A program made the position numbers and the translations under genes. Below are positions 1-3,593 of a DNA stretch of 35,798 bases, one piece after another. The notes under the pieces were generated by a model, which made no database searches, was not told the DNA's origin, and was given only the letters and a program-made list of their open reading frames with translations. Each line of letters starts with the position of its first letter. The first letter of the stretch is position 1. Origin of the DNA: Candidatus Yanofskyibacteriota bacterium (lineage in GTDB: Bacteria > Patescibacteriota > Minisyncoccia > 2-02-FULL-40-12 > GWA2-44-9); contig PLYL01000012.1 in NCBI GenBank assembly GCA_003151795.1, positions 1 through 35,798 on the forward strand, written 5' to 3'.

Positions 1-229
1 TAAGATCCGTCGGATTATAATAGCTCGGCCAGCCAGTCCCGGATTCAAACTTTGTTTCCGAACGAAATAATGGCAAATCACAAGCCGCACAATAATATGT
101 ACCGCCAACCTTTAATTCATCCGCGGGACAAGTAAAAGCTGGTTCTGTTTCTTTCTGTCTCATGATTCTATACTGCTCCGGCGTAAGAATCTTTTTCCAC
201 TCCTCTTCTGTTTTGTGTATTTTATTCAA
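1..229 (-). CDS. msrB: peptide-methionine (R)-S-oxide reductase MsrB, 5' part
   Basis: The reverse strand reads as the N-terminal 76 residues of MsrB, which reduces methionine-R-sulfoxide in oxidised proteins. Visible family signatures are [20 protein letters not shown], then [20 protein letters not shown] and [17 protein letters not shown]. The CAAC pair belongs to the structural zinc site typical of many MsrBs. The gene runs off the window at position 1, so the catalytic C-terminal half is missing here. The start is taken as TTG at 229-227; an in-frame stop lies about 45 nt upstream and there is no ATG before the conserved region. No clear Shine-Dalgarno sequence is seen. Family assignment is confident, the start is not. 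Confidence 0.85.
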
Positions 230-265
230 GGTATATAATTCTATAACCCTCTGAACTTCCTACCT

Positions 266-320
266 TGGCTGGGGGGATAGGATTCGGACCTTCATTTTAG
301 GATTCAAAGTCCCGCGTCCT
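266..320 (-). pseudogene. degenerate tRNA-Gln, 3' part
   Basis: On the minus strand this stretch reads as the 3' half of a tRNA-Gln: a TAGGAC D-arm remnant, an anticodon arm with loop CTTTGAA (anticodon UUG), a T-arm, an acceptor strand CCCCCCA, discriminator G and an encoded CCA at 268-266. It is degenerate: the T-loop reads TCCGAAT instead of TTCGAAT, and the T and anticodon stems contain mismatches. Its D-arm is interrupted by repeat copy 1, and the matching 5' half lies about 400 bp away at 764-782. I infer a tRNA gene split by an insertion. Confidence 0.6.
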
Positions 321-360
321 ATCCCGCCTGAGCGGGACCCCGATGGGGCGGGGCCATTAG
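314..360. repeat. 47-bp direct repeat, copy 1
   Basis: This 47-bp repeat matches 724-770 with one mismatch (346 versus 756), at a period of 410 bp. It consists of GCGTCCTA, two short hairpin-forming segments (TCCCGCCTGAGCGGGA, then a CCCCGATGGGGCGGGG type), and CCATTAG. The flanking GTCCTA and CCATTAG are D-arm sequence of tRNA-Gln, so the hairpins sit where the tRNA D-loop would be. Confidence 0.9.
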
Positions 361-367
361 GCCAATT

Positions 368-465
368 ATTGCGTCCTCACCTGCGGGACTTGGATTCGAA
401 CCAAGATACTGGGCTTCAAAGGCCCATGTCCTACCATTAGACGATCCCGCAGGTGAGGACGCAAT
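368..465. repeat. inverted repeat enclosing tRNA-Gln
   Basis: The 14 bases at 368-381 (ATTGCGTCCTCACC) are perfectly complementary to 452-465. They continue directly into the 7-bp acceptor stem of the enclosed tRNA-Gln, giving a 21-bp uninterrupted helix that includes the discriminator base. The arms share GCGTCCT with the 47-bp direct repeats on either side. Confidence 0.9.
381..451 (-). tRNA. tRNA-Gln (anticodon UUG)
   Basis: This is a complete cloverleaf of 71 nt including the discriminator. The acceptor stem is TGCGGGA/TCCCGCA, the D-stem GTCT/GGAC with loop AATGGTA, the anticodon stem TGGGC/GCCCA around loop CTTTGAA, a 4-nt variable region, and the T-stem CTTGG/CCAAG around TTCGAAT. The anticodon TTG decodes CAA. 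CCA is not encoded; the discriminator is G. The acceptor helix extends 14 bp further through flanking inverted repeats, which is unusual. The gene lies between two direct repeats that sit in a split, degenerate second tRNA-Gln. Confidence 0.95.
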
Positions 466-472
466 GACTATC

Positions 473-718
473 TCAAAGTTTTCCTATAATTTTCCTGAAT
501 TCATTACCGCCTTTTAATTTCTTCAAATAATTCTCCCTTTTTATGGCTTCGCCTCGCGTATCGAAAATCTCTTCTTTTATAACAATCAATGGCATCCTGC
601 TTTTTGTAGATTTTACTTGCCCTTTGTTATGCTTCTCTAGTCTGCTACTTAAATTATAAGTTTGACCGATATAGTAACCGCTATCTTTTAGACTCTTCAG
701 AATATAAACGGAATACAT
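473..718 (-). CDS. GIY-YIG domain nuclease, UPF0213/YhbQ-like, 81 aa
   Basis: This is a single-domain GIY-YIG protein. The N-terminus MYSVYILKSLKDSGYYIGQT carries the two short Tyr/Ile/Gly strands that name the fold; a conserved Arg (SRLEKHN) and the Glu in the REN segment follow, as expected for the active site. Stand-alone members of this size are common, and their substrate is mostly unknown. The gene is AT-rich compared with its neighbours. Its upstream region, including an AGGA that could serve as ribosome binding site, lies in the 47-bp repeat at 724-770. It sits with an intact tRNA-Gln between two direct repeats, which suggests a mobile cassette; that is inference. Confidence 0.85.
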   Translation of the reverse strand: MYSVYILKSLKDSGYYIGQTYNLSSRLEKHNKGQVKSTKSRMPLIVIKEEIFDTRGEAIKRENYLKKLKGGNEFRKIIGKL

Positions 719-723
719 AATAG

Positions 724-770
724 GCGTCCTATCCCGCCTGAGCGGGACCCCGATGAGGCGGGGCCATTAG
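724..770. repeat. 47-bp direct repeat, copy 2
   Basis: This partner of 314-360 has 46 of 47 identical positions. It is joined on its high-coordinate side to the 5' half of a split tRNA-Gln. Recombination between the two copies would delete exactly the 410-bp unit with the nuclease gene and the intact tRNA. Confidence 0.9.
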
Positions 771-782
771 ACGATCTCCCAA
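764..782 (-). pseudogene. degenerate tRNA-Gln, 5' part
   Basis: The minus strand reads TTGGGAGATCGTCTAATGG, matching the 5' end of tRNA-Gln (acceptor, TC, D-stem GTCT, start of the D-loop). The intact tRNA at 381-451 has the same GATCGTCTAATGG. It stops in the D-loop, where repeat copy 2 begins. A weak TACTAT box at 794-789 would place a transcription start near its first base. Confidence 0.6.
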
Positions 783-828
783 TTAGAAATAGTATGCATC
801 ATTGGCTAGGTTTTTTCAAATTCTTAAG

Positions 829-859
829 TTGACACATCTCGTTAATTAACGAATACTAT
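829..859 (+). promoter_or_regulatory. promoter of the 81-aa membrane protein
   Basis: TTGACA at 829-834 is followed after 19 bases by TACTAT at 854-859 (or after 17 by the poorer AATACT). The spacer holds the perfect 12-bp palindrome CGTTAATTAACG at 840-851, a possible operator. The gene start follows 20 bp downstream. Confidence 0.6.
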
Positions 860-878
860 AGGCAAAGGAGACTGCGTC

Positions 879-1124
879 ATGAATACTGTCGCAATCCGAG
901 ATACGTTTTTTGAGGTTTTCATGTACGGCGGCGCCGTGGTAGTGGGGTACTTCGTTCCTTCTTTGTATTGGCCCCTCATGCTCTTGAGTATGGTGGCGGT
1001 GGCAGGCCTGTACATGCGGTTCTTGTACCAAAACCAAATAGCGGCACTGGCCACGATCTTTCTCCCGATACTTTTCATTATCGGAGTGATTCTGCGAATC
1101 CTATATGTCATTATCCGGCATTGA
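879..1124 (+). CDS. small membrane protein of unknown family, 81 aa
   Basis: I do not recognise this protein. It is mostly hydrophobic, with probable membrane segments at about residues 13-27 (FMYGGAVVVGYFVPS), 30-48 and 55-76, and short charged ends. The start is well supported: AAAGGAG at 864-870 stands 8 nt before ATG 879. The gene has its own promoter and is followed at once by a strong terminator, so it is a single-gene unit transcribed toward dnaX, which comes from the other strand. Function unknown. Confidence 0.75.
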   Translation: MNTVAIRDTFFEVFMYGGAVVVGYFVPSLYWPLMLLSMVAVAGLYMRFLYQNQIAALATIFLPILFIIGVILRILYVIIRH

Positions 1125-1155
1125 GCCGGATAACTGACAAGGTGAGCACTCTAGG

Positions 1156-1187
1156 GCCCGGCGCAAAGCGCCGGGCATTTCTTTTTT
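1156..1187 (+). terminator. rho-independent terminator
   Basis: A perfect 9-bp stem GCCCGGCGC/GCGCCGGGC with AAA loop (1156-1176) is followed by a T-rich tract to 1187. It ends the 81-aa gene. On the minus strand no T-run follows the stem, so it should not terminate dnaX. Confidence 0.9.
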
Positions 1188-1190
1188 ATA

Positions 1191-2291
1191 CTACAGTTGT
1201 CCCCCTTCGGGAGATCTCTCGGAGAGAGACATCACGGCGAGCTCAAGCGGTAATTGGGGAATGGGCGAGAATTTAATCTGACTGCGAGCCAGCGTGAAGA
1301 TGTTGATGATTTTAATAAGTTTGTCGTTATCTATTGAAGCCAATGTGGCAAATTGTTTATGAGCTTCGGGACCTTCAATCGAAGCCGAGAGAGTTGGATT
1401 TACGCGCGACAAGAGCGCGCTTCGAGTGTAGGAAATAAATTCTTTGGTGAAATGTTCTAAATCCATGCCGGCATCGTGAATCGTATGAATCAGCCCCACG
1501 GCTGAAGATTGATCGCCTGAAGCCAGGAAGCCTAGGAATCTGGGATGATAGGAACTAGGGATTAGACCTAAAACTTCCGCAACTTCCTTTTCTCCAATCG
1601 CGCCCGTTGGAATCATGCTTCGAATTTTGGTCAGCGCCACTTCGGCATCGCGAAGCGCGCCGTCGGAAGATTTAGCGATGGCGAGAAGGGCATCATCGCC
1701 AATCTGAATTTTTTCGGCTTTGGCGATGGACTTGAGCTTGGTCACCATCTCGCCGGGCGTGATGCGTTTGAAATCAAAGCGCTGGACGCGTGACAACACC
1801 GTCGCCAGAATTTTGTGGGGTTCGGTCGTGGCGAGGATAAACACAACATGTGAGGGCGGTTCTTCCAGAATTTTTAAGAGCGCGTTAAACGAATCTTTGG
1901 TCAGCATGTGGACTTCATCAATAAGGAAAACTTTGTATCCGCCTGACGGCGCCGCCACTTGGGCCGATTCTTTGAGCGCCCGAATTTCGTCAATCCCGCG
2001 ATTAGAAGCGGCATCGATTTCGATGAGGTCGAGCGAGGTGCCATTATTGACCGCGAGACAAGCCTCGCAGACATTGCAGGGCACCACGACACCCTTTTTG
2101 CCGAACTCGGCACAGTTCAAGGCCTTAGCGAAAATCCGCGCCATCGTCGTCTTCCCTGTCCCCCGCGGTCCCGTAAACAAATAAGCCTGTCCCACTCGCC
2201 CGCTCGAAAGCGCCCCTTGAAGAGTCTGCACGACATGCTCCTGCCCCACCAATTGCGAAAATATTTGAGGCCTGTACTTTCGATAAAGCAT
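1191..2291 (-). CDS. dnaX: DNA polymerase III subunit gamma/tau (short form)
   Basis: This is the ATPase of the clamp-loader complex, which opens and loads the sliding clamp. At 366 aa it is far shorter than E. coli tau (643 aa) and close to a gamma-only core. Visible: Walker A GPRGTGKT (41-48), four zinc-ligand cysteines (60, 72, 75, 78), Walker B FLIDEVH (122-128), and the arginine-finger motif as SRVQ (167-170) where SRC is usual. The C-terminal tau extension that binds the polymerase and helicase is absent. Start ATG at 2291 begins the typical MLYRKYRPQ; GAGGG lies almost against it. No recR or ybaB neighbour is seen. Confidence 0.95.
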   Translation of the reverse strand: MLYRKYRPQIFSQLVGQEHVVQTLQGALSSGRVGQAYLFTGPRGTGKTTMARIFAKALNCAEFGKKGVVVPCNVCEACLAVNNGTSLDLIEIDAASNRGIDEIRALKESAQVAAPSGGYKVFLIDEVHMLTKDSFNALLKILEEPPSHVVFILATTEPHKILATVLSRVQRFDFKRITPGEMVTKLKSIAKAEKIQIGDDALLAIAKSSDGALRDAEVALTKIRSMIPTGAIGEKEVAEVLGLIPSSYHPRFLGFLASGDQSSAVGLIHTIHDAGMDLEHFTKEFISYTRSALLSRVNPTLSASIEGPEAHKQFATLASIDNDKLIKIINIFTLARSQIKFSPIPQLPLELAVMSLSERSPEGGQL

Positions 2292-2324
2292 GCCCTCAAT
2301 TTAGTCTAAAAATTTGAAAGTGTC

Positions 2325-2350
2325 TACCTTCGGCAGATCTACCGTAGGTA
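2325..2350. repeat. 26-bp imperfect palindrome
   Basis: TACCTTCGGCAGA and TCTACCGTAGGTA pair at 11 of 13 positions around a central AGATCT. It lies between the last GtrA gene and dnaX on the minus strand. No clean T-run follows, so an operator or weak attenuator is as likely as a terminator. Confidence 0.5.
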
Positions 2351-2357
2351 TGATAAA

Positions 2358-2978
2358 CTACTGCTTGAAAACCACGATCTTGAAACCAGTGAAGCTGAAG
2401 ATGAGGCCACAGGCGGCGCCGGCGACCGTGCCCATATTCGCCCACGTGTTGGGGTTCATACCCGCGAACGGATGGATATAATTGACGACGAAAGAAGAGA
2501 CGGCGACATTAACGCCCAGAGCGACGAGCATGACGGTAACGAACTTAAAGAACTCGGCGAAACTCGGAGGGATATTTCCAGACCGAAACGCCCACGATTT
2601 ATTCCAGACGTAACTTGAGATTACACCGACCGTGAATGAAATGGCTGAAATAATAAAGTAGCCGAACCCTGAAGAATAGCTTGTTAATGAGAGAAGAAAA
2701 TTTAACGTGCCAGCGGTAATGGCGAAGTTCGTGAATCCAATGGCGGCGAATTTGCCGAATTGATTAAAGAATTCCAGCCACTGGCCGAGAAAGTATCCCA
2801 AAAGCACGCCCAAAATCCAGAGAACGGGGACAAGAACAATGAGCAATGACCAAGGAACATTATGGAACTCGGGCGTTTTTAAAAATTCAAATATCCGCCA
2901 CGCGATAGCGCCCGTGATTAATCCCGTCAGGACCGCGAACCCCAAATCCCGTTTTGTAAACTTTTTAAAAAAATTCAA
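2358..2978 (-). CDS. GtrA-like membrane protein, second paralogue
   Basis: This 206-aa membrane protein has a two-helix N-terminal extension (about residues 13-31 and 42-65) and then a four-helix GtrA-type domain ending in FTGFKIVVFKQ. GtrA proteins are thought to help move lipid-linked sugars across the membrane in glycan modification; the exact substrate is unknown. It is a clear paralogue of the next gene upstream: both share FTKRDLGFAVLTG, LWILGVLLGY and a QFG(K/R)FA(A/V)IGFTN motif. The start is TTG at 2978, only 3 nt after the in-frame TAG of the upstream paralogue and without a Shine-Dalgarno, so it probably relies on translational reinitiation. Confidence 0.8.
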   Translation of the reverse strand: MNFFKKFTKRDLGFAVLTGLITGAIAWRIFEFLKTPEFHNVPWSLLIVLVPVLWILGVLLGYFLGQWLEFFNQFGKFAAIGFTNFAITAGTLNFLLSLTSYSSGFGYFIISAISFTVGVISSYVWNKSWAFRSGNIPPSFAEFFKFVTVMLVALGVNVAVSSFVVNYIHPFAGMNPNTWANMGTVAGAACGLIFSFTGFKIVVFKQ

Positions 2979-2981
2979 TTT

Positions 2982-3593
2982 CTATTTGAAGACCACGAAT
3001 TTGAAGCCGATGAAATTGACGATGAGGCCAATCGCGACGCCGGCGGCATTGGCGATGTTGGCCCACTGATCAACCGTCAGGCCAAAGAACGGGCTGATGA
3101 AGGTGGCCACGGCCCAAGAAATCGCAAGGTTCACGGCAAATGAACCGAGCGTGACCGCCACGAACTTGCCAAACTCGCCCCGCTTGCCGCCCAGGCCGCT
3201 GAACGTCCAGTATTTGTTGAGAATATAGCTGCAGACCAGCGCGGCGATAAAGGCGAAGACTTTTATCCCGGCATAGCCGCCGCCGCTCGTGTAGCTGGTA
3301 TACGCGATTAAAAGATTCAAGATGCCGAAATCCACGGCCGTATTAGTGAAACCGATAACGGCGAATCGGCCGAACTGATCGAAAAATTTAAGCCATTGGC
3401 CGAGCAAGTAGCCGAGCAGAACGCCCAGTATCCAAAGAATCGGCAGAGTGGCGATGAGAACCGCCCACGGCAGGCCATGAAATTCCGGGATGTTGAGGAA
3501 TCCAAAAATCCGCCACAATATGAATCCATCCATCACTCCCGTCAGGACCGCAAACCCAAGATCCCGCTTCGTAAATTTTCGCAGAAAATTCAT
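2982..3593 (-). CDS. GtrA-like membrane protein, first paralogue
   Basis: This 203-aa GtrA-family protein has the same plan as its downstream copy: start MNFLRKFTKRDLGFAV, two N-terminal helices, then the GtrA domain with QFGRFAVIGFTNTAVDFGI and a final NFIGFKFVVFK. It begins 6 nt after the stop of the TraD-like ATPase gene, so it is in the same operon. The likely role is flipping or handling of polyprenyl-linked sugars, known for the family and not shown here. The tandem copy diverged mainly in the loops. Confidence 0.82.
   Translation of the reverse strand: MNFLRKFTKRDLGFAVLTGVMDGFILWRIFGFLNIPEFHGLPWAVLIATLPILWILGVLLGYLLGQWLKFFDQFGRFAVIGFTNTAVDFGILNLLIAYTSYTSGGGYAGIKVFAFIAALVCSYILNKYWTFSGLGGKRGEFGKFVAVTLGSFAVNLAISWAVATFISPFFGLTVDQWANIANAAGVAIGLIVNFIGFKFVVFK

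Follow-up and report, generated by a model that had tools for sequence, protein, structure and literature searches.

Small nuclease genes in broken bacterial tRNA genes: a probable class of free-standing homing cassettes that carry a replacement tRNA

The closest described systems are scattered across phages, organelles and bacteria. SegB, a free-standing GIY-YIG homing endonuclease of T-even phages, is encoded between tRNA-Arg and tRNA-Ile (PMC2988022, PMC13096335), and for T4 homing nucleases a hairpin over the ribosome-binding site has been reported (PMC2988022). In fungal mitochondria (Allomyces, Glomus) mobile ORFs replace the end of atp6, atp9, cox2 or nad3 (PMC3630166). The rRNA genes of CPR bacteria contain insertion sequences with LAGLIDADG or GIY-YIG genes, many of which are group I introns (PMC11270868). 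Finally, synthetic Cleave-and-Rescue gene drives cut an essential gene and carry a working replacement (PMC7951863).

Here we describe a locus of a Candidatus Yanofskyibacteriota bacterium (assembly GCA_003151795.1, contig PLYL01000012.1; the whole stretch analysed, 35,798 nt, is referred to as the window) in which a GIY-YIG gene and an intact tRNA-Gln lie inside a second, broken tRNA-Gln gene. As with SegB, this is a lone GIY-YIG gene next to tRNA genes, and the T-even system offers further likenesses in that its intronless homing drags tRNA genes along and in its hairpins near the ribosome-binding site, comparable to the hairpin on AGGA found here. SegB, however, lies within a phage tRNA cluster and is not described as lying in a disrupted tRNA gene and carrying a substitute for it, whereas the units considered here occur in cellular genomes, at single-copy tRNAs and at many isotypes. 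The mitochondrial mobile ORFs (GIY-YIG in atp9, LAGLIDADG in the others) share an endonuclease in an essential gene, a carried substitute and a displaced native part, and here too the native gene is left behind, in the form of 5' and 3' tRNA fragments across the nuclease gene from the intact tRNA. Those ORFs partially replace protein genes, while here bacterial tRNA genes are affected and a whole replacement gene is often nested in the old one. Because the targets are tRNA genes in bacteria we do not class the unit as a mitochondrial mobile ORF, although its mode of action would resemble that of these gene-end-replacing ORFs and of free-standing homing endonucleases. The CPR rRNA insertions are similar in host group and in placing homing nucleases in conserved RNA genes; they differ in that no intron was found here, the target being replaced and not spliced, and the text of PMC11270868 makes no mention of tRNA. 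Cleave-and-Rescue is engineered, whereas the present cassette is natural and drive by it would be hypothetical. Rickettsia palindromic elements and fungal-mitochondrial double-hairpin elements are known short GC-rich double hairpins, and the GC-rich hairpins seen here resemble them in their placement, within tRNA loops and in frame within coding sequences (infB), but the window palindrome occupies one locus in its genome and the hairpins here mark nuclease insertions.

What is new is the target, a tRNA gene of a bacterium, and the cargo, a complete replacement tRNA lying within the old one. An earlier reading of the window from its letters (the sequence-only reading) had treated the unit as a tRNA-rescue cassette with no known counterpart. 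The unit is not unique and belongs to a large class that includes LAGLIDADG genes. No earlier description of such a cassette was found in openly available papers, which does not prove absence of reports.

A broken tRNA-Gln gene enclosing an intact one

The features of the locus are collected in Table 1. The direct repeats, the intact tRNA-Gln(UUG) and the GIY-YIG gene noticed in the sequence-only reading were all confirmed. The repeats are 47 nt long with one mismatch and a spacing of 410, and the unit between them contains the GIY-YIG gene and the tRNA only, with no integrase such as an integrative element at a tRNA gene would encode. The ORF, of 81 aa, matches Pfam PF01541 at 54.9 bits and GIY-YIG structures by profile, and keeps the invariant residues Y5, Y16, G18, R26, H30 and E62. 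The AGGA upstream of it derives from the tRNA D-arm. A perfect 21-bp inverted repeat, a feature absent from the sequence-only reading, extends the inner tRNA at its acceptor stem. When the 517-nt locus transcript is folded in silico the inner cloverleaf stays whole, and the downstream part of the transcript has a fold z of -6.9.

Table 1. Features of the tRNA-Gln locus (window coordinates)
Feature	Position	Strand	Basis
Broken outer tRNA-Gln with inserted unit, whole locus	782-266	(-)	
Promoter-like site TTGAAA-17-CATACT, just 5' of outer tRNA; would transcribe the entire unit	791..819	(-)	consensus match only
5' half of broken outer tRNA-Gln	764..782	(-)	sequence; spliced-alignment test
Direct repeat copy 1: CTAATGG + 32-nt double hairpin + TAGGACGC	724..770	(-)	
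32-nt GC-rich double hairpin in D-loop of outer tRNA	732..763	(-)	
Small hairpin ATAGG-ACG-CCTAT over probable ribosome-binding site AGGA of GIY-YIG gene	720..732	(-)	fold; role putative
Gene for the small GIY-YIG nuclease (81 aa; catalytic residues conserved)	473..718	(-)	
Inverted repeat arm 1, takes in 5' acceptor strand of inner tRNA	445..465	(-)	
Intact inner tRNA-Gln(UUG)	380..452	(-)	ARAGORN; Rfam 64.9 bits
Inverted repeat arm 2	368..388	(-)	
Direct repeat copy 2, 32-nt double hairpin again at 353-322	314..360	(-)	
3' half of broken outer tRNA-Gln (G002 type), then flank of that type GCCAAGGTAGGAAGT	270..321	(-)	

When the outer halves (782-764 and 321-270) are joined across one repeat they give a tRNA-Gln in which D-loop position 18 is followed by exactly 32 additional bases, where about 32 had been proposed; TAGGACGC is the remainder of the D-arm on the 3' side of the hairpin. 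The 5' half scored 15 in the spliced-alignment test against a null maximum of 9-10. This outer tRNA is decayed, with two of seven acceptor pairs and one T-stem pair broken, and it was not called by ARAGORN even after removal of the palindrome. Of the two tRNAs, then, the inner one fits a tRNA model and the outer one does not (21.2 bits in Rfam, below the cut-off of 29), though its 3' half and 3' flank match the intact tRNA-Gln of G002 at the corresponding dnaX locus and it was therefore formerly a tRNA. The tRNA-Gln of G001, by contrast, is almost the same as the inner tRNA, so that inner and outer tRNAs come from different tRNA lineages and the locus contains two types. The genome has 46 tRNA genes over threshold; of these the inner one is the only tRNA-Gln(UUG) found, and compensation for the broken outer tRNA, as suggested in the sequence-only reading, is therefore needed.

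Occupied and empty sites in related genomes

Element-less alleles are present in relatives at both the dnaX-tRNA-Gln and the infB-tRNA-Cys sites. Downstream of dnaX there is a plain tRNA-Gln(UUG) and no GIY-YIG gene in G001, G003 and G009, a GIY-YIG gene with tRNA-Gln in G018, and in G002 and G012 a gene for a 231-aa HTH protein that ends at the tRNA. Downstream of infB seven genomes (including G003, G005 and G013) have a plain tRNA-Cys, while G000, G002 and G004 have a GIY-YIG cassette whose palindrome lies in the anticodon loop and G001, G009 and G017 a LAGLIDADG_3 gene. Together with the outer halves, the empty sites support the earlier proposal of an insertion into the tRNA D-loop by a presumably mobile unit. 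In several relatives (L166, L168, L173) a conserved stretch, CATACCGGCTGAGCGCCGTATTCAAGACAT, is found 3' of tRNA-Gln and is followed by a terminator; this stretch could encode a small RNA.

For tRNA-Cys, identity within the genus is 56-77%, against 87-91% for infB. The LAGLIDADG-linked tRNA-Cys genes of G001 and G009 are 96% identical, with infB at 59%, and taken as a group the LAGLIDADG-linked tRNA-Cys genes resemble one another only slightly more than the plain ones do (p = 0.08). Both comparisons bear on whether cassettes are gained by recombination with co-conversion of their flanks; the G001/G009 identity is in favour of the reading preferred below, the marginal group difference against it. 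Extra divergence had been expected of nuclease-linked tRNAs and is absent, the linked tRNAs of G000 being not more divergent from relatives than the unlinked ones (Mann-Whitney p = 0.51), a result that also counts against that reading. Across one genus, tRNA genes of G000 compared with G001/G003 show a median identity of 79%, with groups near 65-80% and 95-100%.

Recurrence beside tRNA genes

The 766-kb genome contains 11 small GIY-YIG genes, not counting UvrC and one fragment, and six of these adjoin tRNAs: Gln(TTG), Cys, Glu(TTC), Ser(TGA), Gly(CCC) and Gln(CTG). When the window genome and its relatives were taken together, 41 of 103 small GIY-YIG loci had a tRNA gene no more than 300 bp away, and the strand was the same in all 41; with chance adjacency set at 11.5%, a rough upper bound from tRNA numbers, this corresponds to p of about 2e-13. 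In a separate set of named genomes from many phyla (Patescibacteria, Maribacter, Ignavibacteria, Clostridia, Cloacimonadota, Planctomycetota and others), collected with one single protein as query, 26 of 57 loci lay within the same distance (same strand in 25 of the 26). About 60% of small GIY-YIG genes have no adjoining tRNA, which counts against the reading preferred below.

The anatomy of the window also recurs. A full twin is found at a tRNA-Ser (L125), with direct repeats, nuclease, an inner tRNA flanked by inverted repeats and an outer 3' half, and the same organisation is seen at tRNA-Gln(CTG) in L067 and at tRNA-Cys in L007, L103 and L261. The outer halves rejoin to a good tRNA-Ser at L125 and likewise to a good tRNA at L007. 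Since this anatomy is shared by other, independently assembled genomes (L125, L067, L103, L261) and by a second locus of the window's own genome (L007), it is unlikely that the window unit is a product of chance or of assembly error.

The fragments left beside the nuclease genes follow a rule. Nuclease genes with the intact tRNA on their downstream side have a piece of that tRNA on their upstream side in 19 of 30 loci, and the piece is the 5' part in all 19; with the intact tRNA upstream, a fragment is present downstream in nine of 31 loci and is the 3' part in eight of the nine, several of these 3' fragments beginning at T-loop positions 54-55. In nine loci of the downstream class the 5' fragment is interrupted at tRNA position 11-18 or 33, in most cases by a palindrome; these fragments stop a few bases short of the nuclease start and score 11.5-20 against a null maximum of 9-10. 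The duplicated tRNA pieces range from about 11 to 71 nt. In some cassettes the inner tRNA and the fragment are identical, which leaves the resistance of the carried tRNA to cutting unaccounted for and is likewise counted against the preferred reading. At L137 two tandem tRNA-Lys 5' fragments lie 5' of the GIY-YIG gene with different inserts at the same D-loop position, which suggests that insertion happened repeatedly. Comparison with L137 also indicates that the tRNA at L127:1752-1825, reported by ARAGORN as tRNA-Stop(tta), is tRNA-Lys(UUU).

The GIY-YIG genes themselves evolve under purifying selection, with dN/dS of 0.03-0.17 in most close pairs for which dS could be estimated. The GIY-YIG proteins of the window and G007, which share the same D-loop site and near-identical palindromes, are 71% identical, compared with 54% for infB of the same pair, and in the tree the window nuclease falls into one clade with those of L125 and L067. 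Mapping of tRNA isotype on the GIY-YIG tree gave 39 changes (shuffled mean 49.9, minimum 44 of 300), and distant nuclease pairs share an isotype (L006/L194, L212/L218). As judged from this isotype clustering and these distant pairs, nuclease phylogeny follows the target site. A virus-borne cassette was considered and set aside; no relative of the window GIY-YIG protein was found in IMG/VR, and phage records gave only weak matches, below 60% identity.

Other gene families adjoin tRNAs in a similar way. Among LAGLIDADG relatives 15 of 20 adjoin a tRNA, all 15 on the same strand, and in five LAGLIDADG and two GIY-YIG genes the stop codon and last codons lie inside tRNA-Cys (the LAGLIDADG_3 genes are L322-L326). 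The 231-aa HTH family (L157:319-1014 (-), L344-L347) ends no more than 67 bp from tRNA-Gln(UUG) in five genomes, and the nearest five relatives of the HTH protein all lie beside this tRNA. The protein had no Pfam or PDB match above thresholds, and its assignment as a known nuclease was dropped on this ground; the family is probably another tRNA-linked mobile gene.

A near-identical copy of the 32-nt double hairpin of the window is present in the D-loop of tRNA-Gln(CTG) in G007 (L067), and within its own genome the core of the palindrome has exact matches only at its two copies. A dispersed repeat of the Rickettsia palindromic element type was therefore rejected for this palindrome, which is confined to the locus, whereas a different palindrome family is dispersed. 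This other family, of about 34 nt and of the TGTCTCCCTTCGGGAGATCTCCCGAAGGGAGACA type, is found in about ten places in the genome, among them in frame in infB (L007:3140-3175) and at the 3' end of dnaX (window 1198-1232). A screen of 111 tRNAs for flanking inverted repeats gave two further nested tRNAs, tRNA-Ala(CGC) of G000 (L026:1444-1632) and tRNA-Pro(GGG) of G001 (L317, reverse strand). Both interrupt the anticodon loop of a broken tRNA of their own kind and have inverted repeats but no nuclease gene; they look like cassettes after loss of the nuclease gene.

Proposed mechanism and alternatives

Insertion has taken place in a tRNA gene, with an intact tRNA of the same isotype on one side and, in the window, decay of the old copy. 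In our judgement the units are likely to be free-standing cassettes of a homing nuclease, each disrupting a tRNA gene and bringing along the replacement, with cleavage and homing as the presumed means of spread. In a cell without the cassette the small GIY-YIG nuclease would cut the tRNA gene, and recombinational repair from a cassette-bearing copy would place the nuclease gene and the intact tRNA inside the target. The old tRNA remains as decaying 5' and 3' pieces. The carried tRNA is single copy and thus needed, and it would keep the cell alive and block loss of the cassette. Judging from position, the nuclease gene may be transcribed from the promoter of the old tRNA, with the AGGA of the old D-arm as its ribosome-binding site, and the predicted folding suggests that the inverted repeat holds the inner tRNA apart from the outer halves. 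The 47-bp direct repeats would fit a single crossover between a hairpin in the target D-loop and that of the cassette. That the nuclease cuts the empty allele, that the break is repaired from a cassette-bearing allele and that the carried tRNA escapes cutting are all proposed by analogy with the behaviour of GIY-YIG and LAGLIDADG homing nucleases (PMC1564403, PMC2988022).

Four other explanations have to be weighed. The GIY-YIG gene could be a mini transposon, with inverted repeats at its ends and duplications of the target, for which the tRNA is merely a preferred and tolerant landing place. The GIY-YIG gene at L011:1471-1773 does have terminal inverted repeats, of 17 bp, together with a direct repeat of 8 bp at the start codon of recR, and inverted repeats surround the gene at L008. 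Such ends are missing at most tRNA-linked loci, however, the duplicated tRNA pieces vary in length, and the cargo is a complete tRNA, sometimes of another type; we consider this explanation unlikely. Plain tandem duplication of a tRNA, with decay of one copy and chance entry of nuclease and palindrome into the dead copy, where selection does not act against them, would agree with the high tRNA divergence across the genus with or without a linked nuclease and with the resemblance of some fragments to partial tandem copies (L136, L137). It is at odds with the same-strand arrangement at 41 of 41 loci and the strict 5'/3' fragment rule, with the different types of the inner and outer tRNAs in the window and with purifying selection on the nuclease genes, and is quite improbable. 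An addiction or defence module, in which the nuclease is a toxin acting on tRNA or foreign DNA and the linked tRNA the antidote, would be in keeping with a single-copy tRNA always on the same strand as its neighbour. The families involved are nevertheless different (GIY-YIG and LAGLIDADG), both being known homing families, and fragments of the target tRNA mark insertion into a gene, which the antidote model does not predict, so that this explanation is very improbable. The possibility that the unit is an intron and the outer tRNA the functional product, which the insertion in tRNA loops and the rejoining halves of L125 and L007 might suggest, was rejected as extremely improbable, as no Rfam group I or II intron model matched window 1-3000 at E up to 1, the outer stems are broken in the window, and the repeat and 32-nt palindrome would stay behind.

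A bolder proposal can tentatively be made, to which we give rather less than even weight: a natural bacterial cleave-and-rescue drive in which several unrelated nuclease families (GIY-YIG, LAGLIDADG and possibly the HTH protein) would each disrupt one specific tRNA gene present in a single copy and provide in its place a foreign tRNA of that kind which resists cutting, repeated sweeps replacing the tRNA genes of CPR bacteria and leaving nested tRNA-in-tRNA fossils.

For annotation, nested tRNAs and tRNA fragments beside small nuclease genes can be taken as insertion footprints. If the reading as replacement-carrying homing cassettes is true, a selfish nuclease persists in an essential single-copy gene without an intron by bringing a replacement, and engineered cleave-and-rescue drives have a natural counterpart. 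It would also provide a testable function for the many tiny GIY-YIG genes in bacterial genomes, and could help to explain the strong tRNA differences between species of one CPR genus.
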